DNA of 47,343 nucleotides from Nitrospirota bacterium (GTDB lineage: Bacteria; Nitrospirota; Thermodesulfovibrionia; Thermodesulfovibrionales; JdFR-85). The notes beneath the pieces are model-generated. The model was given only the letters and a program-made list of their open reading frames with translations, made no database searches and was not told the DNA's origin. Position numbers and translations under genes: made by a program. The stretch covers positions 1 to 47,343 of the forward strand of contig JAYWMQ010000029.1 in NCBI GenBank assembly GCA_035873375.1, read 5' to 3'. How positions within the stretch are numbered: the stretch's first letter is position 1; each line of letters opens with the position of its first letter. Positions 14,917 through 47,343 of the stretch are shown piece after piece.

Positions 14917-14956
14917 AAAGGGGAGGCCCCTTGTTCGTTGACCTCCCCTCCCCTTT
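14917..14956 (-). terminator. Terminator after sbcC
   Basis: A perfect 10-bp stem, AAAGGGGAGG (14917-14926) with CCTCCCCTTT (14947-14956), closes a 20-base loop. It begins 16 bases beyond the sbcC stop. The T tract on the minus strand is short, so termination strength is uncertain. Confidence 0.65.
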
Positions 14957-14971
14957 CCTGCCAAACCAGTG

Positions 14972-17572: not shown

Positions 17573-17579
17573 TCTATTA

Positions 17580-19277
17580 TTACCCCCTGACTATCTCGTA
17601 GTGTTTTTTAAGGCAGAGATGGATCGTGTCTTCTTCCACCTCCATCTGTTCCAGGTACCTTTTTACGGCTTCATCTTCCTTGAGGTCCTCCGTCATCTTC
17701 TCATCCCTGACTCGTATTCGACGTTTGACGGTCAGTTTGTTTACGATTGGAACAGGAGCGTTTCTCAGAAAAGGCTTCAGCTCCTCATACTGCTCTTTTG
17801 ATACTTCCCCCTTGATCCGGTAGATCGTATCCCGCTCAAGCATTTCCGCCCGGTTTTCCAGCATGAAAAACTCCGGAGTAAGGGTCTTGAACTTTCGGGC
17901 AGGCGTTTCTACAAACTGCACCTCAGGAGTCCTGCCATTGAACTCAACCAGGATGAACCCCTTCTTGTCTTCTTCCTCGTTGAAATCCATTCTGTCGATA
18001 GACCCTGAGTAGTAGGCATTGAGTCCATCGATCTTTTGATATTTATGGATGTGCCCAAGTGCCACGTAGTCAAACTCCCTGAACTCATCAGGGTGTATAT
18101 GCGGATCATACATAAGCATTTCGTCACTTTCAGCCCCCAGGGCGCCATCAACCGTAATGTGTGCAAGCAGGATATTGGGGACCCTCGGATCTATTTCTGT
18201 CTTGAAGTAGTCGATAATGCTTTTCAGCTTCAAACTGACAGCCTTATTCAGCTCTGCTATGGACTTGTTATCCCCCGTGCTCTCAACTATGGATTTACTC
18301 GGAAACGGCAGCACGAATATCTTTGCACAATCCTTTTGTGGCCACCGGCCGGACGGAGTGCTGTTTACAGACATCCCTTCCTGGTAAAAGATGGAGGGCT
18401 TGTCCACAACAAAGATATTCTGCCTTCCTCTGAGAAACTCCAGCGCATTGGCATCCCTGGGGTTTTTGCTGAGGCCGTGGTTGCCCGGCTCAATAAATAC
18501 GGGCATATACCTGGCAAGTTTTTGTAGCTCCACCAGCAACACATTCTGTTCATTCGGAGTAGGAGCATGCGTTTCGGTAGCATCCCCCGGGATAAAGCAG
18601 GCCCTGCAGTTTGCGGAGATCATAGTATCCACCGCAAACCTGATACACCTGTGGATATCAAGGAGTCTCACGTTTTTCCCTGATTCCGGATCGATCTCCT
18701 CCTTGCCTGCAACAGTAAAATGCTCATATACCTGTAGGTCCGCCATATGACCGACCCTGTAATTGCCTTCAAGTATCTGTCTGCCGTCCCGGGTTTGGTC
18801 ATCATGTATGTAAAAGAGAAGGCCCTTCAGCTGTTCCTTGACATCCGCGGGCAAATTATCTGCGTTGACTGCAAGGGCATCAACCTGGCCCAGAGTTTTC
18901 TCTATCCGGGTTAAAACCCTCTCCCAGTACAGACCGGCCTCTTCCGTATTTCCTTCCGGGGCTTTAGTGCAACTGTTTACCAGAAACCCCCAGGACAGCC
19001 AGCCGTTCAGTTTGGATTGCAGCTCCTTCAATTTCTGCTCACTTTTTAGGGACCTAAAAACCCTTGCAGCATCAAACAGAAACCCCTCCGACACGGGAGG
19101 AGCGTCTTTGGATAAAGCAATCGAGAGCTCTTTTACTGCACTCTCCCCTTTTTTCTCAACAAGAGTCTGAACCAGCCGGCCAAGCTGGAAATTTGCTTTT
19201 ATGCCAACGAAGCTGGTCCCCCGGGAACGTTTCAGGAGTTTCTTGCAATCCGCTATAACGTCTCTTAAATCTTCCAA
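17580..19277 (-). CDS. sbcD: SbcD/Mre11-family nuclease with a DUF1016-N-like N-terminal domain
   Basis: 565 residues, much longer than bacterial SbcD at about 400. The Mre11 phosphoesterase motifs begin only near residue 178: HMADLQ, then IPGDATETHA, EPGNHG (normally GNHD/E), LAHITVDGA and ALGHIH. The capping region follows. The extra first 170 residues are helical and resemble the DUF1016/YhcG N-terminal domain, with NFQLGRLVQTL, KELSIALSKD, FLFDAARVFRSL and LSWGFLV in the expected order. The start is a TTG at 19277 with AAGGAGG five bases away. It precedes sbcC by eight bases. The complex would process DNA ends, and the added domain may be a DNA- or protein-docking module. Confidence 0.9.
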   Translation of the reverse strand: MEDLRDVIADCKKLLKRSRGTSFVGIKANFQLGRLVQTLVEKKGESAVKELSIALSKDAPPVSEGFLFDAARVFRSLKSEQKLKELQSKLNGWLSWGFLVNSCTKAPEGNTEEAGLYWERVLTRIEKTLGQVDALAVNADNLPADVKEQLKGLLFYIHDDQTRDGRQILEGNYRVGHMADLQVYEHFTVAGKEEIDPESGKNVRLLDIHRCIRFAVDTMISANCRACFIPGDATETHAPTPNEQNVLLVELQKLARYMPVFIEPGNHGLSKNPRDANALEFLRGRQNIFVVDKPSIFYQEGMSVNSTPSGRWPQKDCAKIFVLPFPSKSIVESTGDNKSIAELNKAVSLKLKSIIDYFKTEIDPRVPNILLAHITVDGALGAESDEMLMYDPHIHPDEFREFDYVALGHIHKYQKIDGLNAYYSGSIDRMDFNEEEDKKGFILVEFNGRTPEVQFVETPARKFKTLTPEFFMLENRAEMLERDTIYRIKGEVSKEQYEELKPFLRNAPVPIVNKLTVKRRIRVRDEKMTEDLKEDEAVKRYLEQMEVEEDTIHLCLKKHYEIVRG

Positions 19278-19306
19278 GGCTACCTCCTTTTAATAAAGTA
19301 TGAATA

Positions 19307-19337
19307 CCGGGCATGGACGTAAAACTCCCATGTCCGG
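19307..19337 (-). terminator. Hairpin after the resolvase gene
   Basis: An imperfect 10-bp stem (CCGGACATGG with CCATGCCCGG on the minus strand) lies between the resolvase stop and the sbcD start. No T tract follows on this strand, so it may be an mRNA structure or a weak terminator. Confidence 0.35.
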
Positions 19338-19382
19338 TTAAAAAGTTGATTGCTAAAAGATGATTACTGCTCAGCGGGCAGA

Positions 19383-19898
19383 TCAGAAATACAGTGCAGC
19401 CATACAGATAGCCTCTGCCTCATGATGAGACAGCTTGACGTTTTTCAGTGCAGGGTAAACACTTCTGGCAAGTGATACCATCTCTGTTTTGCCAAAGTTT
19501 TTGCCGTAACATTTTTTCCAGAGATGAGCAAGCACTTCTTCAACCGCTACGTTGTATCTGCCAAGCGTTGTTATAATTACGGTGGTAGCCGCATTATTCT
19601 TGAGTATATCGGCAAGATTCAACGGCTTTCCCTCTTCCTTTGCCGACGGGTCAGGGCTAAATGAAGGCAGTTTTTTTGTAGCCCGGCGATAGGGAAAAGG
19701 AGGTGGTTTTTCTACCACCCCCTTGGACGGAGCATACTGTTGTATCAGCTCCTCTACCCGAGACATGAGAGAGGTAAACCGGCAGCTGTCTGTAGGCCCT
19801 ACAACTTTAATGACACCGTAAGCGATCAGCTTTTGCTGCCTGATTACGGCATAACCGGTGTCATTATACGACGGGTCAAAAGCTATTACTGTGCGCAT
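19383..19898 (-). CDS. RuvC-like Holliday junction resolvase
   Basis: A 171-residue RNase H-fold nuclease. The first catalytic Asp is in IAFDPSYNDTGYAV (residue 8), the second acidic residue is in KGVVEKPP, and the C-terminal acidic/His cluster is LSHHEAEAICMAALYF, matching the RuvC layout (D-E-HxxE/D). The central insertion is rich in Pro, Arg and Lys. RuvC enzymes cut four-way junctions made by recombination or fork reversal. The start overlaps the 3' end of the upstream 334-residue gene by 23 bases. It fits with the RecG and SbcCD genes downstream. Sequence divergence means it could be a phage- or plasmid-type resolvase. Confidence 0.85.
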   Translation of the reverse strand: MRTVIAFDPSYNDTGYAVIRQQKLIAYGVIKVVGPTDSCRFTSLMSRVEELIQQYAPSKGVVEKPPPFPYRRATKKLPSFSPDPSAKEEGKPLNLADILKNNAATTVIITTLGRYNVAVEEVLAHLWKKCYGKNFGKTEMVSLARSVYPALKNVKLSHHEAEAICMAALYF

Positions 19899-21631: not shown

Positions 21632-23767
21632 TTATGAACACTTGTTGTATTCGCAACTTGAGCATTTAATGCATCCCTCTGCCATCACAAGCACTCCACC
21701 ACACTGGGGGCAATTATTAAAATCCGTCAAGGCAGTATCAATACCGATTCGTGCTACTGCTTTTCTGACAGCTCGCTCCAGATAAGCCAGCATGGAAGAT
21801 ACGTTTCCGTACTTTAGCAGGGACTCTTTTATCTGTTTTAAAACTACATTGGGATCCACGTTACACCTGAGGCCTATACTCATAAGACGAGTTACAGCCT
21901 CCAAAAACTCTGATGTCTTTGAGTCTGCAGGAGTAATGGCAAAAACCTCACGAGGAGCATTTTCATGAACTGTAACACTGATATACATCTTCCCCTCTGG
22001 TGTGTCCACCTCTTCCGCGTACATATTTCTGCTTGCAGGTAGTTTTATTGGCTGAACGTACCTGTCCTCTTTGGATTTTATAACACTCTTGATCTTCCCC
22101 GAATCCCTGTAGACCGTACAACCCTTCAGTCCTCGCTCGTATGCCCGGAGATACGTATCTCTGAACTGCTTAAAAGAGGTGTTGGGATCAAAATTGATGG
22201 TCTTCGAGATACTGGCATCAAAATACTTCTGCCAGACGGCCTGCATCTCAATGTGCTGGCTGGCATTAATCTTAGGTGCAGTCAACACATCCGGAGCTCT
22301 GTTATCACCAGCAATCTCCCTCCAGACGTAGTAAGCATAGTCTTTCACCTGTACAGTCTTCATCTCTTCGTTATCCTTGATCTCTCTTTTCACCTCGAGA
22401 TCAAAGATCGGCTCAATCCCGGAAGAAATATTACCCCACAGCAGGCTGGTAGTACCTGTTGGGGCAATGGAAAGCAGATGACTGTTTCTGACTCCGTATT
22501 TCTGCATATCATTCCGTATGTCTGCAGGCAGGTCCTTGACAAATTCGCCTGCAAGATACTTTTTCGGATCAAACAAGGGAAAACATCCCTTTTCCTGTGC
22601 AAGTTCGACAGAAGTCCTGTATGCAGTATCTCTCATTAACCTTGCAAGGTTATCACTGAACACAAGGGCCTCCGCAGAGCCGTACTGAATCCCCATCATC
22701 CAGAGCATATCGGCAAACCCGGTAATACCAAGCCCTACCCGTCTTTTGCTTACAACCTCGTCCCTTTGTTCCTTAAGTGGCAGCCGGGCCACATCAATCA
22801 CGTTATCAAGGAACCTTACAGCTGTCTTTATCGTCTTCTGAAACAAATCATAATCAAATTCCGGGTTTTGGAAAGGGGACCTTACGAACCTGGTAAGGTT
22901 TATGGAGCCGAGGTTGCATGCTCCATTTGGTGGCAACGGCTGCTCACCGCATGGATTGGTAGCATGAATTTCCTCGCAGTAATAAAGGTTGTTAAGCCTG
23001 TTGAGCCGGTCGATAAAGAGTACGCCAGGTTCGGCATAATCATAGGCATGAGCAAGTATCTGATCCCACAACGCTCTTGCCGATACGGTTTTGTAGACTT
23101 TACCCCCGAAGACAAGCCTCCACTCTCCGTTGTTCTTTACTGCCTCCATGAACCTGTCCGTAATCAGGACAGAAAGATTGAAATTAACCAGGGCATTGTT
23201 TTCAGATCCTCTTTTGGCCGTAACGAACCGTTCGATATCAGGGTGGTCAACTCTCATCACAGCCATCATGGCCCCTCTTCTGTGCCCACTTGACGATATT
23301 GTCCTGCACATAGCGTCATACACCTGCATAAAGGAGATAGGGCCTGAAGATGTTGACCCAACCCCTAAAACGGGAGCGTCTTTAGGCCTGAGAGTGGAGA
23401 AATCAAACCCTATCCCACCGCCAGCCTGCATGGTAAGGGCAGCTTTGTGAAGTACAGAAAAAATCCCCTCCATACTGTCTTCAATTACAGGGGATACAAA
23501 ACAGTTCATGGCAGTACATTTCGACCGGGAAGTTCCCAGGGCATTCATGACACGGCCACCTGGAAGAAAGAAATCCAGGAGCCAGCGGAATTTCTCCTCC
23601 CACACCGCCGGAGCCTCTTCTGCAGAGGCAGCAGTCCTGGCAACTCTGCACTTGGTATCATCCAGAGACCCGTCTGACCGGTACTTGTACTTTTTGCGCC
23701 AGATGTAGTCAACTACTTCCTGCAGATCAGCATCATCTACATCTGTTATTTCCTCTACAGCTAACAC
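21632..23767 (-). CDS. nrdJ: Class II (adenosylcobalamin-dependent) ribonucleotide reductase
   Basis: A 711-residue B12-dependent ribonucleotide reductase that makes deoxynucleotides without oxygen or a second subunit. The expected motifs are present: TAMNCFVSP (first redox Cys), GGGIGFDFSTLRP, NPCGEQPLPP with the thiyl-radical Cys, ACNLGSINL (partner Cys), RRVGLGITGFADML and IAPTGTTSLLWGN. The C-terminus has a zinc-ribbon tail with CPQC, C and CSSCEYNKC, as in NrdJ proteins, including the terminal redox cysteines. The start is a GTG at 23767 after AAGGAGG. It is adjacent to dUTPase, forming a nucleotide-supply pair common in large phages and plasmids. The host must have or import cobalamin. 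Confidence 0.96.
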   Translation of the reverse strand: MLAVEEITDVDDADLQEVVDYIWRKKYKYRSDGSLDDTKCRVARTAASAEEAPAVWEEKFRWLLDFFLPGGRVMNALGTSRSKCTAMNCFVSPVIEDSMEGIFSVLHKAALTMQAGGGIGFDFSTLRPKDAPVLGVGSTSSGPISFMQVYDAMCRTISSSGHRRGAMMAVMRVDHPDIERFVTAKRGSENNALVNFNLSVLITDRFMEAVKNNGEWRLVFGGKVYKTVSARALWDQILAHAYDYAEPGVLFIDRLNRLNNLYYCEEIHATNPCGEQPLPPNGACNLGSINLTRFVRSPFQNPEFDYDLFQKTIKTAVRFLDNVIDVARLPLKEQRDEVVSKRRVGLGITGFADMLWMMGIQYGSAEALVFSDNLARLMRDTAYRTSVELAQEKGCFPLFDPKKYLAGEFVKDLPADIRNDMQKYGVRNSHLLSIAPTGTTSLLWGNISSGIEPIFDLEVKREIKDNEEMKTVQVKDYAYYVWREIAGDNRAPDVLTAPKINASQHIEMQAVWQKYFDASISKTINFDPNTSFKQFRDTYLRAYERGLKGCTVYRDSGKIKSVIKSKEDRYVQPIKLPASRNMYAEEVDTPEGKMYISVTVHENAPREVFAITPADSKTSEFLEAVTRLMSIGLRCNVDPNVVLKQIKESLLKYGNVSSMLAYLERAVRKAVARIGIDTALTDFNNCPQCGGVLVMAEGCIKCSSCEYNKCS

Positions 23768-23786
23768 CTTATTCCCTCCTTCTCTT

Positions 23787-24245
23787 CTATACCCCTGTTG
23801 ACCCTATTCCTCCAGTTCTTTCAGCATCAGCCTCGTCCCCATCGGCCAGCAGGTACTTTTTAAAAATTCCCTGTGCAATCCTCTCACCTTTTTTAATCGT
23901 TACAGCCCTGGACGAATGATTTACAATTCCGACAATTATATGCCCCTCATTGTCCGGATTGTTGTAATAGTCTGAATCGATAATTCCTTCATCATTAAGT
24001 AAGGAAAGACTGTTTTTAAAGGAAATACCGCTTCTTATGTGAATACCGAGGTATTCGTCATCCTGCATGTAAGCCTTTAGGCCCGTAGGAATACTCACCT
24101 GCCCATGCGGCGGAACCACTACATCTTCGGCTGCCTCGATATCATAAGCAGCCGATCTTGCGGTTTTCCTTTTCGGAAGAGCAATCCCCCTGTCTTCATA
24201 CTCTGCAACTACCTCAAACCCTCTTTTTCTGATGTTTTCTGTCAT
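23787..24245 (-). CDS. dut: dUTPase
   Basis: A 152-residue trimeric-type deoxyuridine triphosphatase, hydrolysing dUTP to dUMP and pyrophosphate. All five motifs are visible: ARSAAYDIEA (1), RSGISFKNSL (2), GIIDSDYYNNPDNEGHI (3, the uracil-binding region), KKGERIAQGIF (4) and TGGIGSTGV (5, the C-terminal glycine-rich arm). Motif 3 is longer than in E. coli Dut. The gene ends 19 bases before nrdJ and is in the same operon. It keeps uracil out of the element's DNA and feeds dTMP synthesis. Confidence 0.94.
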   Translation of the reverse strand: MTENIRKRGFEVVAEYEDRGIALPKRKTARSAAYDIEAAEDVVVPPHGQVSIPTGLKAYMQDDEYLGIHIRSGISFKNSLSLLNDEGIIDSDYYNNPDNEGHIIVGIVNHSSRAVTIKKGERIAQGIFKKYLLADGDEADAERTGGIGSTGV

Positions 24246-24855: not shown

Positions 24856-26691
24856 CTACATTAAGGAAATCTGAACCGGCTTGTTCCTTCTTTTTCCTTT
24901 TGTAGCAGCAGTCTTTAGAGCCATCGTGGTATTTTTCAGCCAGTTCAGCCCCGGCGCCGTCTGATGAATCCGGTACTTCACCATATCATTCAGCATTCCG
25001 ATCCATCGTTCAGCATCCCGCAGTTGATAAGGCAAAAAGGGCGGAATTGCGGAAGGTCTGTTAAGGTAGTATTTCAGCAGTCCTGCTTTGGTATGAGATA
25101 CGGATTTATCAAGTTCAAGTTGTATAAGTTTCATCAACATATCCTTTTCATACCTGGCAGGACAGTTCCGATAACCCCCTAACGGCAACAGCCCGGACAA
25201 CAGCATACAGCCTTTATCAACATCCGGAAGCTCTACCGCATCCAGCCTTCTTGCAAGTGTAATATAGCCCATGTATGCCTTTGGAGAGAGATAATACCTG
25301 GAAATCAGGGCCCCCTCTTTTGTCAGGGTGAGCTTACCATCCCTTTCAACCAGAATATTGCAGGCCTTCAGAAACCGTATGTAGCTGTCAACCGTTTCTG
25401 TAATCTTTTGACTGTTTGAGTAAGTAGCGGCAAAAGTCATTCCCAGGGCCTGATAAAGGTCATCCCTGGTAGCAGCGTTCAGAGAGAGCAATGTAAGTAC
25501 CATGGATTCAACGGGCAGTGGAAGGGATTTAGCCATTACATATTTTTTGGCATGAAAGAGCTCAATCTTGTCTCCTATTATGTATGCAGTGGCTTCCGGT
25601 TTTCCCCTGCCGGCACGGCCTATCATCTGGCCAACATCCATAAAATCCAGGTAATAGTTCCCTCGTCTGATTCCACATACGATCACCACATCAGCCGGGG
25701 TATTTATTCCTTGAGACAGGGTATTAGTTGCAAGAAGTGTTTTTAACTCCCCCTTCCTGAAATCCGCAACTATTTTATCCTTATGTGCCTCATCGATATC
25801 AGCGCAATGGAAAGGGGCAACCAGGGATTCACTTAAACAGAACCCTGCTGCCTTTGTAGGCACAAAAACCAGAACACTTTCACCATGATGTTTATTCAGG
25901 ATATCCTTCAGCACCTTCACCCTAACCGACTCCTTGTTATATGCCAGGCCAACGGTAGTGACTATCAGGTTGGAAGATGGAGTCTTTGGAGCTGGCAAAG
26001 CATCTATATCGTCGGGGGCATGAATTTCGTGCAGGCTGATTTTGGTTGACCTGTACCTTGATATAAACAGGTCGGCATTCAGCAGATCAGCCACTGCATC
26101 TTTATTAGGAAAAGTGCCTGACATAAGAAGCACCTTCCCCCCTTCCCTGATAAACATCACGATGGCAACATCAAGCTCACCACTTCTGGAAGGGTCCAGC
26201 AGGTTATGCGCCTCGTCCACAATCAGCAGGCCGGCTTTAGTCCATTCCTTTCCGCTCCGGACTGCACTTATATATCCCTCAGGGGTGGTCACGATAACGT
26301 ATTTACCGGCAACATTCTTGTCGTAACCGGTATTCATCCCAACGACCTTCGCACCCCATACCCCTTTAGAGTCGGCATACAGGTTCTTCACGAGCTCACG
26401 AGTAGGAGCAGTAAGAACAACCCTTTTGCCTTCATCGAGAAAATACCTTGATGCAATATAGGTAAGAGCAGTTTTACCGGTACCTGTTCCACTTTCAACA
26501 ACAGAGTTGCGTTTTGGACTATACAAGTCTCTGAAGCAGCTCTGTAATGGATTGAGCATAGGGAACGGAATATCGGGGTCAGGCTCTGTACTGCATGGGT
26601 AATCTTCCGTGATCTCTATTCTTTGAGGGAGCTCTTCAGAGCTGGTAACCCTGCGCATAAACCGTTTTAAAACATTTCTAAATTTAAACAC
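24856..26691 (-). CDS. Ski2/Hel308-like superfamily 2 helicase
   Basis: 611 residues. The SF2 core has motif I ESGTGTGKTA (about residue 67), Ia TAPTRELVKNL, II IVDEAHN, III LMSGTF, V LLATNTLSQGINTPADVV and VI MIGRAGRGK. This Gly-Ile-Asn motif V and the GRAGR motif VI are those of the Ski2/Hel308 branch. A winged-helix-like and helical C-terminal region follows (about 400-611), ending in a basic tail. Such helicases unwind forks or RNA duplexes from 3' ends. The GTG start at 26691 follows AGGAGG by eight bases. The protein is shorter than Hel308 (about 700), so the ratchet domain may be reduced. Confidence 0.88.
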   Translation of the reverse strand: MFKFRNVLKRFMRRVTSSEELPQRIEITEDYPCSTEPDPDIPFPMLNPLQSCFRDLYSPKRNSVVESGTGTGKTALTYIASRYFLDEGKRVVLTAPTRELVKNLYADSKGVWGAKVVGMNTGYDKNVAGKYVIVTTPEGYISAVRSGKEWTKAGLLIVDEAHNLLDPSRSGELDVAIVMFIREGGKVLLMSGTFPNKDAVADLLNADLFISRYRSTKISLHEIHAPDDIDALPAPKTPSSNLIVTTVGLAYNKESVRVKVLKDILNKHHGESVLVFVPTKAAGFCLSESLVAPFHCADIDEAHKDKIVADFRKGELKTLLATNTLSQGINTPADVVIVCGIRRGNYYLDFMDVGQMIGRAGRGKPEATAYIIGDKIELFHAKKYVMAKSLPLPVESMVLTLLSLNAATRDDLYQALGMTFAATYSNSQKITETVDSYIRFLKACNILVERDGKLTLTKEGALISRYYLSPKAYMGYITLARRLDAVELPDVDKGCMLLSGLLPLGGYRNCPARYEKDMLMKLIQLELDKSVSHTKAGLLKYYLNRPSAIPPFLPYQLRDAERWIGMLNDMVKYRIHQTAPGLNWLKNTTMALKTAATKGKRRNKPVQISLM

Positions 26692-34685: not shown

Positions 34686-35036
34686 AACAAACCTCCTGTT
34701 AAAGAGAACTACTAAACGTTGGAAGCCTCTACAAGGCAGAGAACCTCCAATCGTCTTGGGGTGGCAAAGGTAGGCTGGGGATAGGAATACATGAGAATTT
34801 TTTTTCAAAAATACGGTAACGGGATTTTCCGGCAGGCCATGGATGAGCCATGAGTGACATTTAACGGCAGACTCGACACAGCAGGTCGCAGACTGGCATA
34901 AGCCATTTCAGGGGTATTCTTCGGACAGAAGGAAGCGCTTGCAACGACCTTGGGAAAGGCGTGGATAAATCAGGAAGGGAAACTGCTGCAACTATTGCAA
35001 CGACAAAAGCTGTTGACGCGCTGACAAGACTGTTCC

Positions 35037-35069
35037 TCAACTTGAAACAGACGGTTTTATCCTATCCAT
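35037..35069 (-). other. Possible 10-codon leader ORF
   Basis: GGAGGTTTGTTATG at 35069 is identical to the ribosome site plus start of the 34685 gene and opens a 10-codon ORF (MDRIKPSVSS). It is downstream of the perfect promoter. It could be a leader peptide or the relic of a duplicated start. Confidence 0.3.
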
Positions 35070-35160
35070 AACAAACCTCCCAAACAAAGAAGTTGATATA
35101 CCATCAATGATCGATAGACCTGTAAAGGGAAAACCTTAAATCCTGGAAATCTGCATCTAA

Positions 35161-35519
35161 ATGCCCGGTGAAAAAATGGAAAGTCTGGAAGGTTGTGAAA
35201 GGTTAGATTCGTCTAATCTTGATAATTCTCTGAACATAGGTAATGTACAGAAAAGGAAGGAGCTGAGAGATATGTTCGGGGTAAAAGGGAAGGAGACATA
35301 TATAATTAAATGTCCGGATTTTGTTTCACTTCCAGGCAGTAATTAAAAAAATACGGTAAACGTGCAAAGCAAGAATACAAAAAGATACAAAATGCACAAA
35401 CTCGTGCAAATTCGAGGATCGTTAAAATGATTGATTGGATTTTAATAGAAATGGCTTTAAATCAGGGATTGCTGAAGATAAAAAATGGGGATATATACTG
35501 GAGGGCTTTTTCAGCTTGA
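35161..35519 (+). pseudogene. Possible frameshifted or broken rightward ORF
   Basis: A 61-residue frame (35161-35346) ends in TAA just before an A7 run. In the -1 frame a second open stretch without a good start continues at once (LKKYGKRAKQEYKKIQNAQ) to a TGA at 35519. Together they would encode about 118 residues with protein-like composition. Either a damaged gene or a -1 slip at the A run is possible. There is no strong ribosome site at the first ATG. Antisense transcription from the perfect leftward promoter would cover it. Confidence 0.3.
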
Positions 35520-35561
35520 AACCGGGTTAAATATGTTGGATAAATTAGGTTTTATACTACT

Positions 35562-35590
35562 ATTATACAGTCGAAATCAGTAACTGTCAA
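35562..35590 (-). promoter_or_regulatory. Perfect consensus sigma-70 promoter, leftward
   Basis: TTGACA (complement of 35585-35590), 17-base spacer, TATAAT (complement of 35562-35567). It is the best promoter in the window and points into the gene-poor region. No clear gene start follows within 480 bases. Confidence 0.85.
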
Positions 35591-35597
35591 GCAAAAG

Positions 35598-35632
35598 CCC
35601 CTTAACTATTTGATATTAAAGGGAATTTTTTT
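35598..35632 (+). terminator. Rightward terminator before the iteron region
   Basis: CCCCTTAA pairs with TTAAAGGG (one mismatch) around a 10-base loop and is followed by seven Ts (35626-35632). It would stop rightward reading into the ParB operon. Confidence 0.55.
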
Positions 35633-35896
35633 ACGTCGTTTTTTTCAAAAAAAACAGCTACCCCCTTTTTGTTCCCGGCCACATATGATTTCAATAAATA
35701 AACTTACAAATCACTAATAAAATCAAGAGGTTAGCGTCAAAAAAGGCACTATACAAACACACATTTCTACACACTCAAAAGGCATACAAATAAACAGGTC
35801 ATCTCAAAACAGTGTCCAATACAGGGTAGTCACCTTGCTTGGGCAGCTACTAAGTCCTTGAAATTATTAACAAAATCGACAATTTTGAAAAAAAGG

Positions 35897-35980
35897 TTTT
35901 AACGGGGTTTTTGACGGGTATTTTGACGGGTATTTTGAGGGGGGTTTTGAGGGGGTAACTGAGGGGGGTTTTGAGGGGGG
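35897..35980. repeat. Seven contiguous 12-bp G-rich iterons
   Basis: Units: TTTTAACGGGGT, TTTTGACGGGTA (twice), TTTTGAGGGGGG, TTTTGAGGGGGT, AACTGAGGGGGG, TTTTGAGGGGGG. They follow each other with no gaps for 84 bases, consensus TTTTGAsGGGGn. They lie about 150 bases before the ParB-like gene and next to an AT-rich tract. They may be binding sites for a replication initiator or the ParB-like protein. The run of G blocks could also form a G-quadruplex. Confidence 0.85.
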
Positions 35981-36011
35981 TGTAAGCTACCTGATTTCAG
36001 CCAACCATGAC

Positions 36012-36026
36012 GGGACATCATGTCCC
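36012..36026. promoter_or_regulatory. Perfect 15-bp palindrome (candidate operator or partition site)
   Basis: GGGACAT-C-ATGTCCC lies between the iterons and the ParB-like gene's promoter. The position suits autoregulation by the ParB-like protein, or a parS-like site. Confidence 0.6.
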
Positions 36027-36080
36027 AAGAATCTGCATTCATTTTATTAAATTTAAATATCTGCAAAAATCCCTTTTTCA

Positions 36081-36108
36081 TTGAAAAGCTCAAGGTAATA
36101 TTTATATA
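36081..36108 (+). promoter_or_regulatory. Promoter of the ParB-relaxation-rpoC operon
   Basis: TTGAAA (36081-36086), 16 bases, TATATA (36103-36108). AAAGGAGG follows at about 36119, then the ATG at 36133. It is the only promoter I see for the three-gene unit. Confidence 0.6.
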
Positions 36109-36132
36109 AACAGCAAACAAAGGAGGCCGTCA

Positions 36133-37047
36133 ATGGAAGGAACTTTTAACTCAGAGAAGTATCTCGATGAAGCAATTGGTAATCTTGAGAGGACTACCGG
36201 CAGGGACGAGGTCGTTAGCATTCCAGTTGGAAAGATTTGTCCAAACAGGCTACAGCCAAGAAAATATTTTGATCCTAAGGCCCTAAAGGAACTGGAAACT
36301 TCCATCCGTGAAAACGGGTTGTTGCAGCCCATTCTTGTAAGAAAGATTGAAGAGCCAGGATCTGAGTTCATGTTTGAACTCATTGCTGGCGAAAGGAGAT
36401 GGCGCGCTTCAATAGCTGCAGGCTTAAGCACTATTGCTGCAATAGTGAAAAAAGATGTAACGGACCGACAGCTACGTACATTTGCGTGTATTGAGAATAT
36501 GCATCGGGATGATCTTAATCCACTCGAGAAAGCAGCCTCAATAGCCGGGATTAAAGAGGATTATGGAGATGATGACAGCGTTGCAAAGGTCTTGGGATAC
36601 AACAATAAGAAAACTGTTACACGATATCTGAAGATTCATACAGCATCAAATCTCACCCCTGAGATAAATAAAATCTTTTGGGACAATACTCCTGCTCTGG
36701 ATTTCAAAACAGCATCTGAATTCTCTGAGCTCTCGTTTTCACTTGCCAAACTCAAGAAATCCAACAACAGAGAATACCGCAGAATAATCAGACGATTAGA
36801 GAAAAAGGGTATTAAAGACAGTATTTCCTACCTCACAAAATACTTTGCCGTACCGGAAACCAAAACAACTCCTGCTGCTGCAGCAGTGCCTGAGATGTTT
36901 AGGGAAACAAATAACGAGTACGTATTAAAGATAAAGGTGAACAAGGACAAGAAACTCACTTTCGAGCTTAGAAAAAACATTCAGGAAAATATAAATCAGT
37001 TTCTGGAAAAAATCGATACGCTCAAGGCTGAGCTGCAACCGGAATAG
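36133..37047 (+). CDS. ParB-like partition protein
   Basis: 304 residues. The ParB/Srx domain is clear: LQPRKYFDPKALKELETSI, then the nucleotide-binding ELIAGERRWRAS (about residue 85), then CIENMHRDDLNPLEKAA. A helix-turn-helix region follows (VAKVLGYNNKKTVTRYLKIH), and a helical C-terminus ends in a Lys-rich dimerisation-like tail. ParB proteins bind parS sites, and some act as CTP-dependent clamps in DNA partition. No ParA gene is in the window. The ATG at 36133 follows GGAGG. The iterons and palindrome upstream are its likely DNA targets. Confidence 0.88.
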   Translation: MEGTFNSEKYLDEAIGNLERTTGRDEVVSIPVGKICPNRLQPRKYFDPKALKELETSIRENGLLQPILVRKIEEPGSEFMFELIAGERRWRASIAAGLSTIAAIVKKDVTDRQLRTFACIENMHRDDLNPLEKAASIAGIKEDYGDDDSVAKVLGYNNKKTVTRYLKIHTASNLTPEINKIFWDNTPALDFKTASEFSELSFSLAKLKKSNNREYRRIIRRLEKKGIKDSISYLTKYFAVPETKTTPAAAAVPEMFRETNNEYVLKIKVNKDKKLTFELRKNIQENINQFLEKIDTLKAELQPE

Positions 37048-37064: not shown

Positions 37065-37841
37065 ATGGCAGATATAACCGATAGAGACCTGGATATTTTC
37101 AGAATCCTATCCAGCGGACCTGCAACCTTCGTTCAAATAAAGAGTCTTCTTAAAAGAGTCTACAAGAGTGAGGTATCTCAACACGCTCTTTATAAAAGAC
37201 TGTCTATCTTACGCAAGGACAAACTCATCATGTCTCAACAGTATCGCAACAGGGATGGCAAAGGAAGATTCGTTCTCTACGGTATAACCCCCCTTTCTGT
37301 ACAAACTCTTGTAACCCAGGGATACGCTGTAGAGAGAATAAGGACGAATATGCCAAGCGAACTTACCGTTGCTCACGAAATGGCTGTAACTGATGTAGTA
37401 AGAACAATAAAAAGAGAAAGCGCAAAGTATCAGTATGATTTTTCGTTCCTGGATGAGAATACTCTGAAGGAAATGTATAGGGGCAAGAGGAGGAAAATCG
37501 TATACCCGGATCTGCTGGTTAATTTGGTCTTTCACACAAAACCCGAGCCAACGAAGAAACAACTTGCTGTAGAGATAGATAACAGCACTATTTTAGCATC
37601 GAAATTATTTGAGAAAATGAAGGAAATGAAGTGGACAACTTTAATGTTGTGTACCACCACGATGAGAATCAACGCACTCAGAAAGAAATTTATGATTGAT
37701 GAGGATTTGTATGGCAAGGTATTCTTTGCCCTTCTGTCAGAGTTTTGTCCGAAGGGCTTTATTGGGACAAACTGGTTGACGGTAGAAGGTGGCAATGCAA
37801 CGATATTATCACCAAAACTGAACCTGAAAGCCGTAGGTTAA
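37065..37841 (+). CDS. Replication-relaxation family protein
   Basis: 258 residues. An N-terminal winged helix (ITDRDLDIFRILSSGPATF, KRLSILRKDKLI) is followed by an alpha/beta domain with a PDDEXK-like run: YPDLLVNLVF and QLAVEIDNSTI. This matches the replication-relaxation family known from plasmids, whose members act in plasmid maintenance by an unclear mechanism. The ATG at 37065 follows the ParB stop by 17 bases, with GGAGG. It forms an operon with the ParB-like gene upstream and rpoC downstream (100 bases later). Confidence 0.75.
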   Translation: MADITDRDLDIFRILSSGPATFVQIKSLLKRVYKSEVSQHALYKRLSILRKDKLIMSQQYRNRDGKGRFVLYGITPLSVQTLVTQGYAVERIRTNMPSELTVAHEMAVTDVVRTIKRESAKYQYDFSFLDENTLKEMYRGKRRKIVYPDLLVNLVFHTKPEPTKKQLAVEIDNSTILASKLFEKMKEMKWTTLMLCTTTMRINALRKKFMIDEDLYGKVFFALLSEFCPKGFIGTNWLTVEGGNATILSPKLNLKAVG

Positions 37842-37940
37842 TGATGCCCTGCCCTACCGTCAATTGCCTTTCACTTGCGGCAAGAGGGCTTCCCGGCCTG
37901 GAAATCCGGAACAAATATTACAGGTATTCAGAAAACTATC

Positions 37941-40900
37941 ATGAAAAAAAGCAGTAAAATCAACAACATAAACAACCTGACAATAAGCCTGCTGAATCCC
38001 AGAAGGATCATAAAATTATCGTATGGGGAGATAGACAATGCAAAAACCATAGATATCATCACAAAACGTCCTGAAATCGGTGGGTTATTCTGTGAAAAAA
38101 TATTTGGACCTGTTGAAGCCGGGAGATGCCATTGTGGAAAATACAAAAAAGCATATCATAAAAAAGGCACTATTTGTGAAAAATGCGGCGTTGAGATCAA
38201 TGACCCCATTGTCAGAAAGAGGAGGTTCGGGCATACTTCTCTTGCTGCTCCTGTAGTACATATATGGTTCAGAAGCATCATTGCCAAACTGCTGGATATA
38301 CCGCCGAAAGCACTGGACAGGATTATCAGCTATCAGTCATATATAGTGCTCGCCCCTGGAGAGAGCCGGCACCAAAAACATGAAGTTATCTCAGCAAATG
38401 ATTATTTTGCAATCAAATCATCAAAATCCGAGGCATCTGCCCGCTTCAGAGCAGCTACAGGTGCGGGTATAATCAAGTACCTGCTGAAGAGCCTGAAAAT
38501 AGACCCCCTGGTTGAGCATCTAAAGGAAAGGGAGTCCTCCAGAAGGGTAACCAAGAGACTGCAGATAGCAAGAGACTTTCAGAAATCCGGGAACAAACCT
38601 GAATGGATGGTACTCGATGTTCTGCCGGTGTTACCTGCAGATCTTCGGCCCATACTGTTCCTGGAAGACGGGACGGTTGCTTCCTCTGACCTTAACGATT
38701 TGTATATCCGGATAATGAACCGCAACCAGCGCCTGAAACGTCTGCTTAGGCTTGGTGCTCCTGAGCTGATAATAAACACTGAAAAAAGATCCTTGCAGGC
38801 CTCTGTAGATGCCTTATTCGATAACGGTCGTAAATACACAGCCAAAGACAGGTCAAACAAGAGAGTCCTGAAATCACTCTCTGAAATGCTGCGGAGTAAA
38901 AAAGGGAGACTTAGAAGAAATCTCTTGGGCAAGAGGGTGGACTATTCCGGCCGTTCTGTAATAGTGGTTGGTCCGGACTTGAAACTCCATCAGTGCGGTA
39001 TTCCAAAAGATTTAGCTATGGATATATTCAGGCCTTTTGTATACGGACAACTCATGAGACTTGGATATGCCTCCAGTCTGAAACACGCAAAACTGCTTGT
39101 TGAAAAGAAACAACCTGAGGCCATGGAAGCACTTGAACATGAAATCAGGGAGAAAACCATCTTATTAAACAGAGCTCCATCACTTCATAGAATGAGTATT
39201 CAGGCATTTGATCCGGTTTTGGTTGAAGGCAAGGCAATACGGCTACATCCTCTGGTATGCTCTGCATTTAATGCCGATTTTGATGGAGATCAGATGGGGG
39301 TCCACCTACCTGTTTCGATTGAAGCACAAATAGAGTCAAGAGTATTAATGTTGTCAGTATACAATATCCTTTCTCCTGCCAACGGGAAACTCATAATGAG
39401 TCCTTCACAGGATATGGTACTTGGGATATATTACCTTACAAAAGAAAAGAGGGGCTGTAAAGGAGAAGGAAAGATATTCGCCGACCCCGAGGATGCAGTA
39501 ATTGCCTATGATGGTGGAGTAGTTGATTTACAGGCGAAAATAAAAGTAAGAATTAATGATGAATTGATAGACACCACTCCCGGAAGAGTTGTTTTTAGTG
39601 AAATATTCCCCCCTCAAATTCCTTTTGAGGCTTTGAATAAAAATATCAGGAAAAAAGACTTAAACAAATTGATAGAGTTATGTTACGACAAGGCCGGGCA
39701 CAAGGAAACAGTTGTTTTATTGGACAAAATCAAGGATACAGGTTTTAAGTTTGCAACCCTTTCAGGTATTTCATTGTGCATTGATGACCTCTCTATTCCA
39801 GGGGAGAAAGAGTCAATCATTAAAAAAACCGAAGGCCAAGTTAAAGATATTCAGGAGCAATATAGCAGTGGAACGATTACAGACAAGGAAAAACATAATA
39901 AAATCATAGACTTATGGATGAAAGCCTCTGACAGGATTGCAACGGCAATGATGGAAAACTATGGAATCCCTGACAATGACTTGCTCACACCAGAGGAAAA
40001 ACAGGAGAGGAAAGCATTCAATTCTGTATTCATGATGGCAGATTCAGGAGCAAGGGGTTCAGTTCAGCAAATAAGGCAAGTTGCAGGAATGAGAGGCCTT
40101 ATGGCAAAGCCTACCGGAGAGATAGTAGAGGTTCCGATAAAATCAAACTTCAAGGAAGGGTTGAGCTACCATGAATTCCTGCTTTCCTCTCATGGTGCTC
40201 GCAAAGGAAGAGCTGATGGAGCATTAAAGACTGCCAATGCCGGCTACTTTACAAGAAAGCTTGTTGATGCCGCACACGATGTGGTGATTAATGAATATGA
40301 TTGTGGTACCACAAAAGGGATCACAATATCGGCACTGACGGATAATAATACTGTTATGGTCCCGATAGAAGAGAGAATCTATGGCAAGATTGCAGCAGAA
40401 AACATTGTCGATCCTGGTTCGGGCAGCATCATTGTACAAAGAAATAACGAAATTGGCAAAGCTGCCGTTACTGAAATAAAGGCCGTCGGGATAACATCGG
40501 CACGGGTGCGTTCCCCCATCACGTGCGACTCCAGAGAAGGAATATGTGCCATGTGCTATGGATATGACCTCTCGTCAAGAAGAATAATAGACATAGGGAG
40601 TGCGGTAGGCATTATAGCTGCTCAATCCATTGGAGAGCCAGGCACACAGCTTACTTTAAGAACGTTTCACTCCGGGGGCAGTGCTTCAGGAGCAACAGCA
40701 AGGTCCTTAATCGAAGCAAAAGAAAGCGGCATTGTCAAATTCTCTGATATTAAGTGTGTAGACAACAAAGACGGCAAATCCGTGGTAGTTAATAGAAATG
40801 GACGGCTGTTGATCAAAAATCAAGCCGGGGCAGAAAAAGATATGGGGGCTATCCCTTACGGAGCAGTTTTATATTTTAATGAAGGCACGTCAGTAAAGTC

Positions 40901-41903
40901 CGGACAGATAATTGCTGAATGGGACCCCTTTAATATGCCTGTTATAGCTGTAAACAACGGGACTGTTACTTATATGGATATCGTCAATGGGTTAACTATG
41001 AAGAAAGAAACTGATGGTGAAACAGAGATATCGAGAGTGGCTATAACCTCTATCACAGAAAACCTCATTCCCAGGATTATAATTGACGACAGGGAGTATT
41101 TTTTACCTATCGGAGCAACTCTTACAGTCAATGAAGGCAATAACATAGAAGCCGGAGATGTTATTGCAAAGATCCCCAAAAAGGCAACCAAAAATGTTGA
41201 TATAACCGGGGGGCTTAACAGAGTGCTGCAGGTTCTCGATGCAAGGAAACTTGATCGTGCTGCGATACTTGCAGATATAAATGGAACTGTCAGAATTCAT
41301 CCTCCAAAAGGCAGATATATGACTGTTGAAATTCTGGGAGAGCATGGTGACTCAAAAAAACATTCTGTATCAATCGAACGGCAGTTCAATGTTTATAACG
41401 GAGACTATGTAAAAGCCGGGGACATATTGGTAGATGGAATAGTGGATGCAAGGGATATACTTCGAGTATTGGGGCCTGAGAAGGCTGCAATCCATGTCAT
41501 TAACGAGATCCAACTGGTATACAGAAGCCAGGGGGTTACTATAAATGACAAGCATCTGGAAATATTGGTCAGAAAAATGCTTGGAATGGTTCAGATAGTT
41601 GAGCCTGGGGATACAAGCTTTATTCCCGGGGAGATAGTCTCTAAATGTAGATTTACAGAAGAAAACAGTACTGTAAAAATGGAGAAAGCGATTGCAAAGC
41701 CGATACTTTTAGGGATTACAGCAGTAGCTTTATTATCTGAAAGCTGGCTGTCTGCAGCTTCATTTCAACGAACAACGTCTGTCCTTGCACAATCTGCTAT
41801 ACAAGGAAAAACGGATTATTTTAAGGGGTCAAAAGAGAACATAATTGTAGGCAATATAGTACCACTTGGGACTGCTCATCCAGAAAATATCCCACATAAG
41901 TGA
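37941..41903 (+). CDS. rpoC: Stand-alone DNA-directed RNA polymerase subunit beta'
   Basis: 1320 residues from ATG 37941 (a longer frame begins at TTG 37875; neither has a good ribosome site). The order of domains matches a bacterial beta': zinc ribbon 1 (CHCGKYKKAYHKKGTICEKCG), clamp and coiled coil, lid (GKRVDYSGRSVIVVGP), catalytic NADFDGDQM, bridge helix (DSGARGSVQQIRQVAGMRG), zinc site 2 (DCGT, then CDSREGICAMC), trigger loop (GEPGTQLTLRTFHSGG, Leu replacing the usual Met), an SI3-type insertion and the C-terminal KENIIVGNIVPLGT. The last about 35 residues of the E. coli tail are absent. It has no adjacent rpoB. It would pair with host beta, alpha and omega. It follows the ParB-like and replication-relaxation-like genes on the same transcript. 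Confidence 0.95.
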   Translation: MKKSSKINNINNLTISLLNPRRIIKLSYGEIDNAKTIDIITKRPEIGGLFCEKIFGPVEAGRCHCGKYKKAYHKKGTICEKCGVEINDPIVRKRRFGHTSLAAPVVHIWFRSIIAKLLDIPPKALDRIISYQSYIVLAPGESRHQKHEVISANDYFAIKSSKSEASARFRAATGAGIIKYLLKSLKIDPLVEHLKERESSRRVTKRLQIARDFQKSGNKPEWMVLDVLPVLPADLRPILFLEDGTVASSDLNDLYIRIMNRNQRLKRLLRLGAPELIINTEKRSLQASVDALFDNGRKYTAKDRSNKRVLKSLSEMLRSKKGRLRRNLLGKRVDYSGRSVIVVGPDLKLHQCGIPKDLAMDIFRPFVYGQLMRLGYASSLKHAKLLVEKKQPEAMEALEHEIREKTILLNRAPSLHRMSIQAFDPVLVEGKAIRLHPLVCSAFNADFDGDQMGVHLPVSIEAQIESRVLMLSVYNILSPANGKLIMSPSQDMVLGIYYLTKEKRGCKGEGKIFADPEDAVIAYDGGVVDLQAKIKVRINDELIDTTPGRVVFSEIFPPQIPFEALNKNIRKKDLNKLIELCYDKAGHKETVVLLDKIKDTGFKFATLSGISLCIDDLSIPGEKESIIKKTEGQVKDIQEQYSSGTITDKEKHNKIIDLWMKASDRIATAMMENYGIPDNDLLTPEEKQERKAFNSVFMMADSGARGSVQQIRQVAGMRGLMAKPTGEIVEVPIKSNFKEGLSYHEFLLSSHGARKGRADGALKTANAGYFTRKLVDAAHDVVINEYDCGTTKGITISALTDNNTVMVPIEERIYGKIAAENIVDPGSGSIIVQRNNEIGKAAVTEIKAVGITSARVRSPITCDSREGICAMCYGYDLSSRRIIDIGSAVGIIAAQSIGEPGTQLTLRTFHSGGSASGATARSLIEAKESGIVKFSDIKCVDNKDGKSVVVNRNGRLLIKNQAGAEKDMGAIPYGAVLYFNEGTSVKSGQIIAEWDPFNMPVIAVNNGTVTYMDIVNGLTMKKETDGETEISRVAITSITENLIPRIIIDDREYFLPIGATLTVNEGNNIEAGDVIAKIPKKATKNVDITGGLNRVLQVLDARKLDRAAILADINGTVRIHPPKGRYMTVEILGEHGDSKKHSVSIERQFNVYNGDYVKAGDILVDGIVDARDILRVLGPEKAAIHVINEIQLVYRSQGVTINDKHLEILVRKMLGMVQIVEPGDTSFIPGEIVSKCRFTEENSTVKMEKAIAKPILLGITAVALLSESWLSAASFQRTTSVLAQSAIQGKTDYFKGSKENIIVGNIVPLGTAHPENIPHK

Positions 41904-42229: not shown

Positions 42230-42333
42230 TGGAATGAAATTAATTGATATAAAAGAAAATGATTTGAACCGGGAATACGAAAGAGAACAGATTGATTCTA
42301 AAAAGGAACCAGCAAGTATTAAGTGGAGGCAAG

Positions 42334-42585
42334 ATGGATGATTTAGATAACGAGACACTTGAACGCCTTGCCGAGGCAGCGCATAAAGTATGGATGGAAG
42401 GAAAACTTCGTGACGGCTGGAAATACGGGCCTGAGACGGATAAAGCCAGAAAGATTCATAACTGTCTTGTTCCTTATGATCAATTGAGTGAGTCTGACAA
42501 GGAATCAGATCGTGATATGATTCGGGGCATTCAAGAGATACTTAAGGCTGCCGGATATAAGATGGTGAAGGCTGATAAACAATGA
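42334..42585 (+). CDS. RyR-domain protein, 83 aa
   Basis: ATG 42334, after GGAGGCAAG, is preferred to 42292, which lacks a ribosome site. The sequence matches the prokaryotic RyR domain along its whole length: AAHKVWMEGKLRDGWKYGPE, CLVPYDQLSESDKESDRD and ILKAAGYKMV. RyR domains in bacteria are predicted nucleotide- or nucleotide-derivative-sensing modules in conflict systems. It lies 63 bases before the PfkB-like/AAA gene and is probably its partner. Confidence 0.85.
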   Translation: MDDLDNETLERLAEAAHKVWMEGKLRDGWKYGPETDKARKIHNCLVPYDQLSESDKESDRDMIRGIQEILKAAGYKMVKADKQ

Positions 42586-44905: not shown

Positions 44906-47343
44906 ATGTCTAAAAAACAAACACCTGAATCTATAAAACCACGAGTCGTCCGTGTCTTCGTCTCCTCCACATTCCGAGACATGCATAATGAGCGGGAGGA
45001 ACTTGTAAAGTTCACTTTTCCTAAGCTAAAAGAGAAATGCAGGGAGCGGGGTGTTGAGTTTGTGGATGTAGATTTGCGGTGGGGAGTGACAGATGAGCAG
45101 AAGGCCGAAGGGAAGGTACTGCCAATCTGTCTTGCAGAAATCGAGCGCTGCCGTCCTTATTTTATTGGATTACTCGGAGAGCGGTACGGGTGGCTGCCGG
45201 AAGATATTCCTCAAGAGCTTATAGAACAACAGGATTGGCTAAAAGATCACAAGAAGAAGAGCGTTACCGAGCTTGAGATAATTCATGGTGTGCTTGAAAA
45301 CCCGGAGATGGAGAAATTCTCTTTCTTTTACTTCCGCAATCCTGCGACGTCAGCTGAAGTAGAAGAAGACCTCTCCAAAAAGCCGGATTACCTTCCTGAA
45401 CCGGAAACTTCCCTTAATAAGCTGAAATCACTGAAAGGCAGGATACTTGAGCATGAGCAAAACTATCCAGTGCCTGTCCGAAAGGATTTCCATAATGCAG
45501 AGACACTGGGACAGCAGGTTCTTGATGACCTCTGGGCAGCTATTGACAAAAGGTTTCCGGAAAGAGAAACGCCCTCGCCTCTTGAACGGGAGCGGATGGA
45601 CCATGAGGCATTTGCCGAGGCAAGGAGAAAAGTCTATATAGGGCGGGATGAGTATTTCAATAAACTTGATGAACATGTAAACAGCGAAGATCCTCCATTA
45701 GTAATCCTTGGTGAATCAGGATCGGGTAAGTCGGCACTGATTGCGAACTGGACAGAAAGATACCGGCAGGATAATCCTGATGAATTTATAATCACCCACT
45801 TTATCGGCGGTACCCCTGACAGTGCTGATTATGTGCGAATGCTCCGGAGAATCATGGAGGAGATACAGGAGAGGTATGAGACTGGACGAGCAGAGAATAT
45901 TCCCTCTCCCCTTGCGGGAGAAGGTCAGGGTGAGGGGGCAATCCCGACTGATCCAAAGAAGATAGTTGAGGCGTTTCCGCTCTGGATTGCAAAGGCATCT
46001 GCAAGAGGTAAATTAATCCTTATCCTTGACGCTTTAAACCAGCTTGAAGACAGGGACAATGCTCTGGAACTCGGCTGGCTGCCGGTGTATTTCCCGCCCA
46101 ATGTGAGGGTAATACTATCCACTTTGCCGGGGAAAAGCCTTGATGCCTTAAACAGAAGAAACCTTTCCTCAATGAATGTTGGATTGTTTGATCTGGAAGA
46201 GAAGAAGACTTTAATTCCTCAGTATCTGCAGAGATTTTCAAGGTCATTGAGTCCAAGGCACCTGAATCTCATTACGGATACTGAACACACAAACAACCCC
46301 CTTTATCTAAAGACTCTGCTTGATGAGCTGAGATATCACGGTGATTATTTTACTCTTGAAGAGAGAATAAAACACTATCTGAAAGCTAGGACAGTTGATG
46401 ATCTCTACGAGAAAATCCTTGCCCGATATGAAGATGATTATGAACGGGACAGCGCTGGATTAGTGAGAGATGCTATGTCGCTGATATGGGCATCGAGGCG
46501 GGGGCTGTCTGAGACAGAGCTTTTGGGGATGCTTGGCCTAAAGGATAAACCTCTTCCAAAGGCTGTATGGTCACCATTGTACCTTGCAGCAGAGGAATCA
46601 TTGATAAGCCGCTCAGGATTATTAAACTTTGCCCATGATTTTCTGAGAAAAGCGGTTGAAGAAAAGTATGTGGTGAATAAGGAGACGAGCAATGATTATC
46701 ATTTGAAAATTGCGGATTACTTTGAAGATGAAGAATTGACAGACAGAAAGGTTGATGAACTGCCGTGGCAATTTAGGGAAGCAGAAAGTTGGGAAAAGTT
46801 GAAAGACTGTATTACAAAAACAAGGATGTTTTTAAATCTCCGCACAGATAAAAAACAATATGAACTTATGGGGTACTGGCTTAAACTTGAGAACAGATTC
46901 AATATTGTAGAAGTACACAATGAAATGATCATTACATATGAGAAATCAGTAACAGACGAACAGGAATTATCATACCTGTTGAATCAGACAGCGCTCTTTC
47001 TTAATCTTAACGCCAGATACGAAGGGGCAGAACCTCTATACAGAAGGGCGCTTGAGATAAGGGAAAAGGTGCTTGGCAGAGAGCATCCTTCTACGGCAAC
47101 AAGCCTGAACAACCTGGCAGAACTGTTTAAAAGCAAAGGGGATTACGAAGGGGCTGAGCCTCTATACCGGCGGGCGCTTGAGATATATGAAAGGGTGCTT
47201 GGCATGGAGCATCCTTCCACGGCAGCAAGCCTGAACAACCTGGCAGAACTGTTTAGCAGCAAAGGGGATTACGAAGGGGCTGAGCCTCTATACCGGCGGG
47301 CGCTTGAGATATATGAAAGGGTGCTTGGCATGGAGCATCCTTC
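44906..47343 (+). CDS. DUF4062-NACHT-TPR protein (3' end off the right edge)
   Basis: Begins MSKKQTPESIKPRVVRVFVS, with the DUF4062 signature VFVSSTFRDMHNEREEL and GVEFVDVDLRWGVTDEQ. A NACHT/STAND NTPase follows: VILGESGSGKSALIANW (about residue 275), then LILILDALNQL as Walker B. The C-terminal half has helical linker, then tandem 42-residue TPR units (YEGAEPLYRRALEI). It runs off the edge, so length is unknown. A REP-like palindrome (45902-45938) is inserted in frame before Walker B, adding PSPLAGEGQGEG. NACHT-TPR proteins are regulated oligomerising switches. DUF4062 would be the effector or recruiting domain. This is likely a defence or signalling protein. Confidence 0.85.
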   Translation, partial: MSKKQTPESIKPRVVRVFVSSTFRDMHNEREELVKFTFPKLKEKCRERGVEFVDVDLRWGVTDEQKAEGKVLPICLAEIERCRPYFIGLLGERYGWLPEDIPQELIEQQDWLKDHKKKSVTELEIIHGVLENPEMEKFSFFYFRNPATSAEVEEDLSKKPDYLPEPETSLNKLKSLKGRILEHEQNYPVPVRKDFHNAETLGQQVLDDLWAAIDKRFPERETPSPLERERMDHEAFAEARRKVYIGRDEYFNKLDEHVNSEDPPLVILGESGSGKSALIANWTERYRQDNPDEFIITHFIGGTPDSADYVRMLRRIMEEIQERYETGRAENIPSPLAGEGQGEGAIPTDPKKIVEAFPLWIAKASARGKLILILDALNQLEDRDNALELGWLPVYFPPNVRVILSTLPGKSLDALNRRNLSSMNVGLFDLEEKKTLIPQYLQRFSRSLSPRHLNLITDTEHTNNPLYLKTLLDELRYHGDYFTLEERIKHYLKARTVDDLYEKILARYEDDYERDSAGLVRDAMSLIWASRRGLSETELLGMLGLKDKPLPKAVWSPLYLAAEESLISRSGLLNFAHDFLRKAVEEKYVVNKETSNDYHLKIADYFEDEELTDRKVDELPWQFREAESWEKLKDCITKTRMFLNLRTDKKQYELMGYWLKLENRFNIVEVHNEMIITYEKSVTDEQELSYLLNQTALFLNLNARYEGAEPLYRRALEIREKVLGREHPSTATSLNNLAELFKSKGDYEGAEPLYRRALEIYERVLGMEHPSTAASLNNLAELFSSKGDYEGAEPLYRRALEIYERVLGMEHP
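45902..45938. repeat. REP-like palindromic element inside a coding region
   Basis: CCCTCTCCCCTTGCGGGAG followed by GGTCAGGGTGAGGGGG is an imperfect inverted repeat that I recognise from many environmental bacterial genomes, where its six-frame products include SPLAGEG and TPTLS peptides. Here it is in frame in the NACHT domain. Only one copy is in this window. Confidence 0.7.
47030..47343. repeat. 126-bp tandem repeat (TPR units)
   Basis: Units at about 47030-47155, 47156-47281 and 47282 on. The second and third are identical over their visible length (47158-47217 against 47284-47343). The period encodes one 42-residue TPR. The array continues off the right edge. High identity suggests recent copy-number change. 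Confidence 0.9.

Follow-up and report, generated by a model that had tools for sequence, protein, structure and literature searches.

A conserved array of 12-bp direct repeats upstream of a parB-Replic_Relax-rpoC operon, a likely maintenance region of a mobile element family

A run of 12-bp direct repeats, joined without spacers, stands upstream of a gene for a ParB-like protein in the DNA analyzed here, and the question was what such an array might control. The window (the whole stretch of DNA that was analyzed, 47,343 nucleotides) is the complete contig C29 of a 2.67-Mb genome in 63 contigs. Control of replication and partition is the most likely function of the array region, and the repeats likely mark the maintenance region of a family of mobile elements.

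The repeat array and the surrounding non-coding region

Tandem Repeats Finder placed one array at 35895-35981 (forward strand), with a period of 12, 7.2 copies, no indels, and a score of 83. The units run head to tail, and six overlapping 36-base copies are offset by exactly 12 bases each. At lag 12, 60 of 75 positions in the array are identical, compared to a maximum of 38 in 40 simulated Markov windows and 39 at the runner-up site of the real window; the gap-free array described in the earlier note was thus borne out at a level far above chance. In the register common with relatives, the consensus is YTKASGRGGNNN, and the units (35899-35982) are, in order, TTAACGGGGTTT, TTGACGGGTATT (twice), TTGAGGGGGGTT, TTGAGGGGGTAA, CTGAGGGGGGTT, and TTGAGGGGGGTG. 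Two of these do not fit the pattern originally given for the unit, TTTTGA(C/G)GGG, namely unit 1 (TTTTAAC) and unit 6 (AACTGAG). The array consists of tandem direct repeats of uniform length, as is expected of an iteron origin.

The array ends 151 bp upstream of an operon composed of parB, the gene for a Replic_Relax-like protein (RR), and rpoC. It is located in a non-coding region of 1324 bp (34809-36132), which is the largest gap in the window and at which both the gene strand and the GC skew switch. The flanks of the array are moderately AT-rich (60-73% AT), in agreement with the AT-rich neighborhood described earlier. Between the array and parB, there is a perfect 15-bp palindrome, GGGACATCATGTCCC (36012-36026), a proposed parS or ParB operator that occurs once in the window even when up to three mismatches are allowed. 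A promoter-like motif, GTAATATTT, follows on the forward strand at 36095-36103, 37 bp before parB. The earlier note had recognized the ParB-like and RR genes in this context but had overlooked the palindrome, the TAATAT motif that is conserved, and the presence of rpoC in the operon.

A switch in GC skew had been looked to as a sign of an origin. The cumulative skew does have its minimum at about 35 kb, at the change in gene strand; however, in the relatives G141 and G061, plus-strand genes to the left of the site are skewed positive and minus-strand genes negative. Since the switch tracks gene orientation in these relatives, GC skew was rejected as evidence for an origin or for the direction of replication. 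A search for the DnaA box (TTWTNCACA) within 34.8-36.2 kb yielded none. Such a box is not needed by every iteron-regulated origin.

On the reverse strand, the contig carries a conserved divergent backbone, the gene order of which is common to several related elements. It includes ssb and RecG-like helicase, SMC/SbcC-like, SbcD-like, and RuvC-like genes (11810-19898), nrdJ (B12 ribonucleotide reductase) with a dUTPase gene (21632-24245), and a DEAD-box helicase gene (24856-26691). Past the operon, rpoC is directly followed by a gene for a 97-aa RyR-domain protein (42292-42585) and then by one for an AAA protein. At the contig end, a 126-bp tandem repeat (47018-47343) is located within a DUF4062/NTPase/TPR gene; this repeat is probably the point at which the assembly broke.

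Distribution and conservation of the control region

RR was found in 19 of the 199 relatives searched (a count that includes the genome of the window). Members of other families in this order, namely G165, G061, G141, G079, G057, G152, and G128, retain the parB-RR-rpoC operon. In each of the 11 related elements compared, which likewise come from other families of the order, the RR gene is either co-operonic with parB or divergent from it; the divergent arrangement is found, without rpoC nearby, in L110, L111, L112, and L113. Two contigs from different families, C17 of G061 (L165-L167) and C34 of G141 (L144-L158), are about 96% identical over blocks of 20 kb and 18 kb that include the operon, which suggests recent horizontal transfer. 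The second of these is a 294-kb contig that carries, along with the operon, F-type conjugation genes (TraD, TraC, TraH, TraG, and TraN), BREX-like PglZ/DUF6079, and metal-transport genes (FeoB, RND efflux, and P-type ATPases). Viral contigs scanned with ParB and RR gave no matches, and no RR homologue was found in plasmid records. No report of rpoC-bearing elements of this kind was found in the open literature searched, outside of which most subscription papers lie. The family is apparently undescribed so far and has been seen in one bacterial order.

Most of the 11 elements combine 12-bp-spaced units (consensus CTGAGGGG-NNNN) with the TAATAT motif, and a palindrome is usually present as well; the sequence between these blocks drifts. 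The units lie upstream of parB in L109 (GTGAAGGGGGTG), L116 (CTTACGTGGTTT), and L103 (CTCAAGCGGTAT), and also in the rpoC-less L110-L113 (CTGAGGGGTAAC in L110 and L113, CTGAGGGGCTGC in L112). In the latter four, they occupy the intergenic region that separates the divergent RR and parB genes, accompanied in most by a palindrome such as CCGACATGATGTCGG (L110) or GCGACACGGTGTCGC (L113). Other palindromes are GCGACACTCTGTCGC (L109), GCGAAATGATTTCGC (L116), and GGGAAACTGTTTCCC (L107). Their sequence varies from element to element; they are present in most elements, although for an individual sequence a palindrome by itself is often no more than chance would give. There are two to seven copies of the unit per element, with the highest number in the window. 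In L116 and L103, the 12-bp period is kept with almost no G-runs.

Upstream of parB, lag 12 was enriched relative to segments drawn at random from those contigs (p = 0.001 with the window left out) and had the largest mean excess among lags 8-40. In a leave-one-out PWM analysis, pairs at lag 12 scored 11.8 on average, compared to 3.0-6.4 at lags 9-11 and 13-15, and the expected pair was the best pair of the held-out element in most cases; because the units for this analysis were picked by eye and the set includes related elements, the significance should not be read as exact. The pairs in L105 and L108 were weak, with 76 and 109 of 429 controls, respectively, being equally good. TAATAT or TATTAT was located at -35 to -49 of parB in 11 of 12 upstream regions. 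The notion that GTAATATT is a general promoter motif of the host was rejected, as GTAATAT occurred at -60 to -20 in 0 of 120 host upstream regions. When the close trio G061/G141/G079 was aligned, the cores of the repeats were largely fixed, as were GTAATATTT and part of the palindrome, and the remainder varied.

A scan of 176 genomes of the order for two strict units gave matches in nine genomes, fewer than did the reversed control. Those at L203, L202, and L207 (outside of the window) are inside genes and, upon inspection of their flanks, look like chance; ParB or RR relatives were encoded at none of the eight strict-unit loci. Judging from the sequences compared, the control region is conserved in spacing and core across the mobile element family. 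The expectation of an iteron-like region conserved beside parB and the Replic_Relax-like gene therefore held for most of the 11 elements, weakly so for L105 and L108.

Products of the operon

The first gene of the operon, parB (36133-37047, forward strand), encodes a protein that matches ParB_N with an E-value of 3.4e-29 and that, from its sequence, is classed as a CTPase-type ParB (motifs GERRWRA and ENMHRDDL). Proteins of this class normally act at palindromic sites. No ParA gene was recognized adjoining parB, and no AAA_31 genes were found on C29, though they are present elsewhere in the genome.

The second gene (37065-37841, forward strand) encodes RR. The match of this protein to Replic_Relax (PF13814) has an E-value of 2.7e-5 and a score of 24.8 bits, slightly below the Pfam cut-off of 25.3; the earlier note had called the two genes ParB-like and replication-relaxation-like. 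AlphaFold modeled RR (mean pLDDT 91.8) with a predicted winged helix (residues 1-90) and a predicted restriction-endonuclease-like domain. The predicted winged helix is close to PadR/MarR regulators (Z of 10-12). The second domain, modeled alone with a pLDDT of 89.2, resembled mostly restriction-endonuclease-like folds with Z-scores in the middling range of 5-8 (PaqCI, Can2, BsaWI, N.BspD6I, and FokI), and Foldseek returned nothing for it with an E-value below 0.001. P148, D149, E170, and D172 were invariant in the 12 sequences aligned. This pattern (P148-D149 ... E170-x-D172) is akin to PD-(D/E)XK except that D replaces the K, which renders catalysis uncertain. The window proteins scanned gave no match to a known plasmid Rep family; the remainder of the element may reside on other contigs.

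The third gene, rpoC (37875-41903, forward strand; start codon uncertain), encodes a complete bacterial-type RNA polymerase beta-prime subunit that matches TIGR02386 over its full length with 1410 bits (cut-off 963.5). Its NADFDGD motif and zinc-binding cysteines are intact, which suggests a working subunit under selection. The rpoB and rpoC genes of the host are located on contig C2; the window copy of rpoC is 53% identical to that of its own host, and a profile search detected no second rpoB in this genome. In a phylogenetic tree, the 10 element copies of rpoC formed a single clade (support 100) apart from 20 other rpoC rows, nearly all of them from hosts; one row, G079_C432, had a very long branch and is probably a bad translation. 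The clade includes the window gene and those of L103, L105, L106, L107, L108, L109, L116, and L120, most of which are in an operon with parB and the Replic_Relax gene. Viral contigs scanned with RpoC contained just distant phage subunits (27-32% identity), and the matches listed from plasmid records were rpoC genes of 45-46% identity, many in records of chromosome size. Separately, an rpoC-like frame on C135 of G165 (L187) is merely 65% identical to the copy of the window's host, and the normal host copy of that genome is located on C108; this frame is possibly a third rpoC or contamination.

It was unexpected that bacterial mobile elements should encode a copy of the largest RNA polymerase subunit themselves. 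As a tentative extension, it is possible that this conjugative/mobile family maintains a beta-prime gene of its own in one operon with the genes for partition and replication, all governed by a dedicated iteron-palindrome-GTAATAT control region. The encoded subunit might then take the place of the host beta-prime in a fraction of the polymerase, so that the element would gain a separate transcription program or protection from inhibitors of the host subunit. Intact cellular RNA polymerase catalytic subunits on mobile elements would be rare, and the linked rpoC, as one such case, would make plasmid-driven polymerase swapping directly testable.

Function of the array and comparison with known systems

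With a probability of about one half, the array is read here as the iteron cluster of a region (origin/partition/operator) that controls the maintenance of a mobile element. This reading draws upon the array being far beyond chance, the lag-12 enrichment and leave-one-out PWM result, the placement of units and palindromes between divergent RR and parB genes in L110-L113, the fixed blocks in G061/G141/G079, the predicted winged helix and nuclease-like PD...ExD pattern of RR, the CTPase-type ParB, and the failure of the window proteins scanned to match a known plasmid Rep family. Weighed against it were the lack of a DnaA box, a skew that follows the strand, the lack of a recognized ParA gene beside parB, the weak pairs in L105 and L108, and single palindromes that are often within chance.

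From these features, we infer the protein-DNA contacts, origin activity, nicking, and autoregulation that follow. The winged helix of RR would bind the in-phase 12-bp units to form an ordered nucleoprotein array, which would open or nick the DNA such that replication starts; RR may also autoregulate the operon promoter at 36095. ParB would bind the adjacent palindrome as parS, load as a CTP clamp, and couple copy control to segregation.

The foremost alternative is a centromere, in which ParB itself would occupy the direct repeats (and the palindrome) and the array would be a partition site, not an origin. In Deinococcus radiodurans, the direct repeats that precede parAB are bound by ParB and are both ori- and parS-like (PMC7671480), and repeats are found upstream of parB in most of the elements compared. 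However, a separate palindrome of the type used by CTPase ParBs lies between the array and parB, which would leave the repeats to another protein, and RR is an equally constant partner (same operon or divergent in 11 of 11 related elements). A centromere is thus considered unlikely.

It is also rather unlikely that the repeats are an operator only, i.e. that their role is confined to binding a protein that regulates the parB-RR-rpoC operon, without any part in replication. The location of the array upstream of the conserved TAATAT, which is 35-49 bp before parB, the resemblance of the RR winged helix to PadR/MarR regulators, and the variable copy number (2 to 7) would all suit an operator, but the array, palindrome, and strand switch jointly fit a maintenance region, and in L110-L113 the array sits between two divergent genes of the module.

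Were RR a nickase-like relaxosome protein and the repeats its oriT sites, the array would be a transfer origin. The nuclease-like fold of RR, with the nickase N.BspD6I among its matches, and the F-type conjugation system of one relative (TraD, TraC, TraH, TraG, and TraN) point in this direction; yet on that 294-kb contig the transfer genes occupy 2-50 kb, whereas the array is located at 86 kb, a search of the window's own genome did not find TraN, and RR has ExD where active PD-(D/E)XK enzymes have ExK. This explanation is therefore quite improbable.

The telomere or quadruplex function suggested earlier by the likeness to T4G4 repeats is scarcely credible: the sole G3+N1-7 motif of the contig is indeed in the array (35939-35980, forward strand), but the array is internal, and the homologous arrays CTTACGTGGTTT (L116) and CTCAAGCGGTAT (L103) maintain the 12-bp spacing without G-runs, so such a function is not the conserved property. 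Just as remote is a functionless chance expansion of a simple repeat, which the high copy number in the window element and the ability of slippage to expand repeats might favor; it is countered by the recurrence of the spacing and core at the same place in elements of other families. The maintenance-region reading would provide a sequence handle for origin finding and vector building, comprising the 12-bp CTGAGGGG units, the parS-like palindrome, and GTAATATTT.

Iteron-type origins with clustered direct repeats are known for plasmids and secondary chromosomes (e.g. Vibrio cholerae ori2/RctB). The present locus is like them in its cluster of direct repeats, spaced at roughly one helical turn, beside genes for a predicted winged-helix protein and a partition protein. 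It is unlike them in that no initiator of the Rep_3/RepA/RctB type was recognized and no DnaA box was found; the candidate initiator is instead a Replic_Relax protein with a predicted nuclease-like domain. With parABS systems that use a CTPase ParB (Spo0J/Noc), it shares the ParB N-terminal domain, the GERR and EN-x-x-R motifs, and a palindromic candidate parS beside parB; unlike in those systems, no parA neighbor was recognized, and the palindrome differs among elements. Jumbo phages with multisubunit RNA polymerases are also mobile elements that encode a homologue of the catalytic subunit, and their subunits are split and divergent (PMC7598289, PMC4666361); here, there is one intact cellular-type beta-prime, and the profile search found no second rpoB in the genome.

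The cisII/cisMP regions of Deinococcus radiodurans feature 18-bp iterons (11 and 8), 14-bp repeats, DnaA boxes, and a parAB pair, and their direct-repeat arrays upstream of a par operon have been proposed to be ori plus parS (PMC7671480). By comparison, the present locus has spacer-free 12-bp units, a separate palindrome, rpoC, and no parA in the operon. Since direct-repeat arrays serving as ori and parS upstream of par genes are known in Deinococcus (PMC7671480), the general kind is familiar; the features that make this locus new are its 12-bp unit, its pairing with RR, and its linkage to rpoC.
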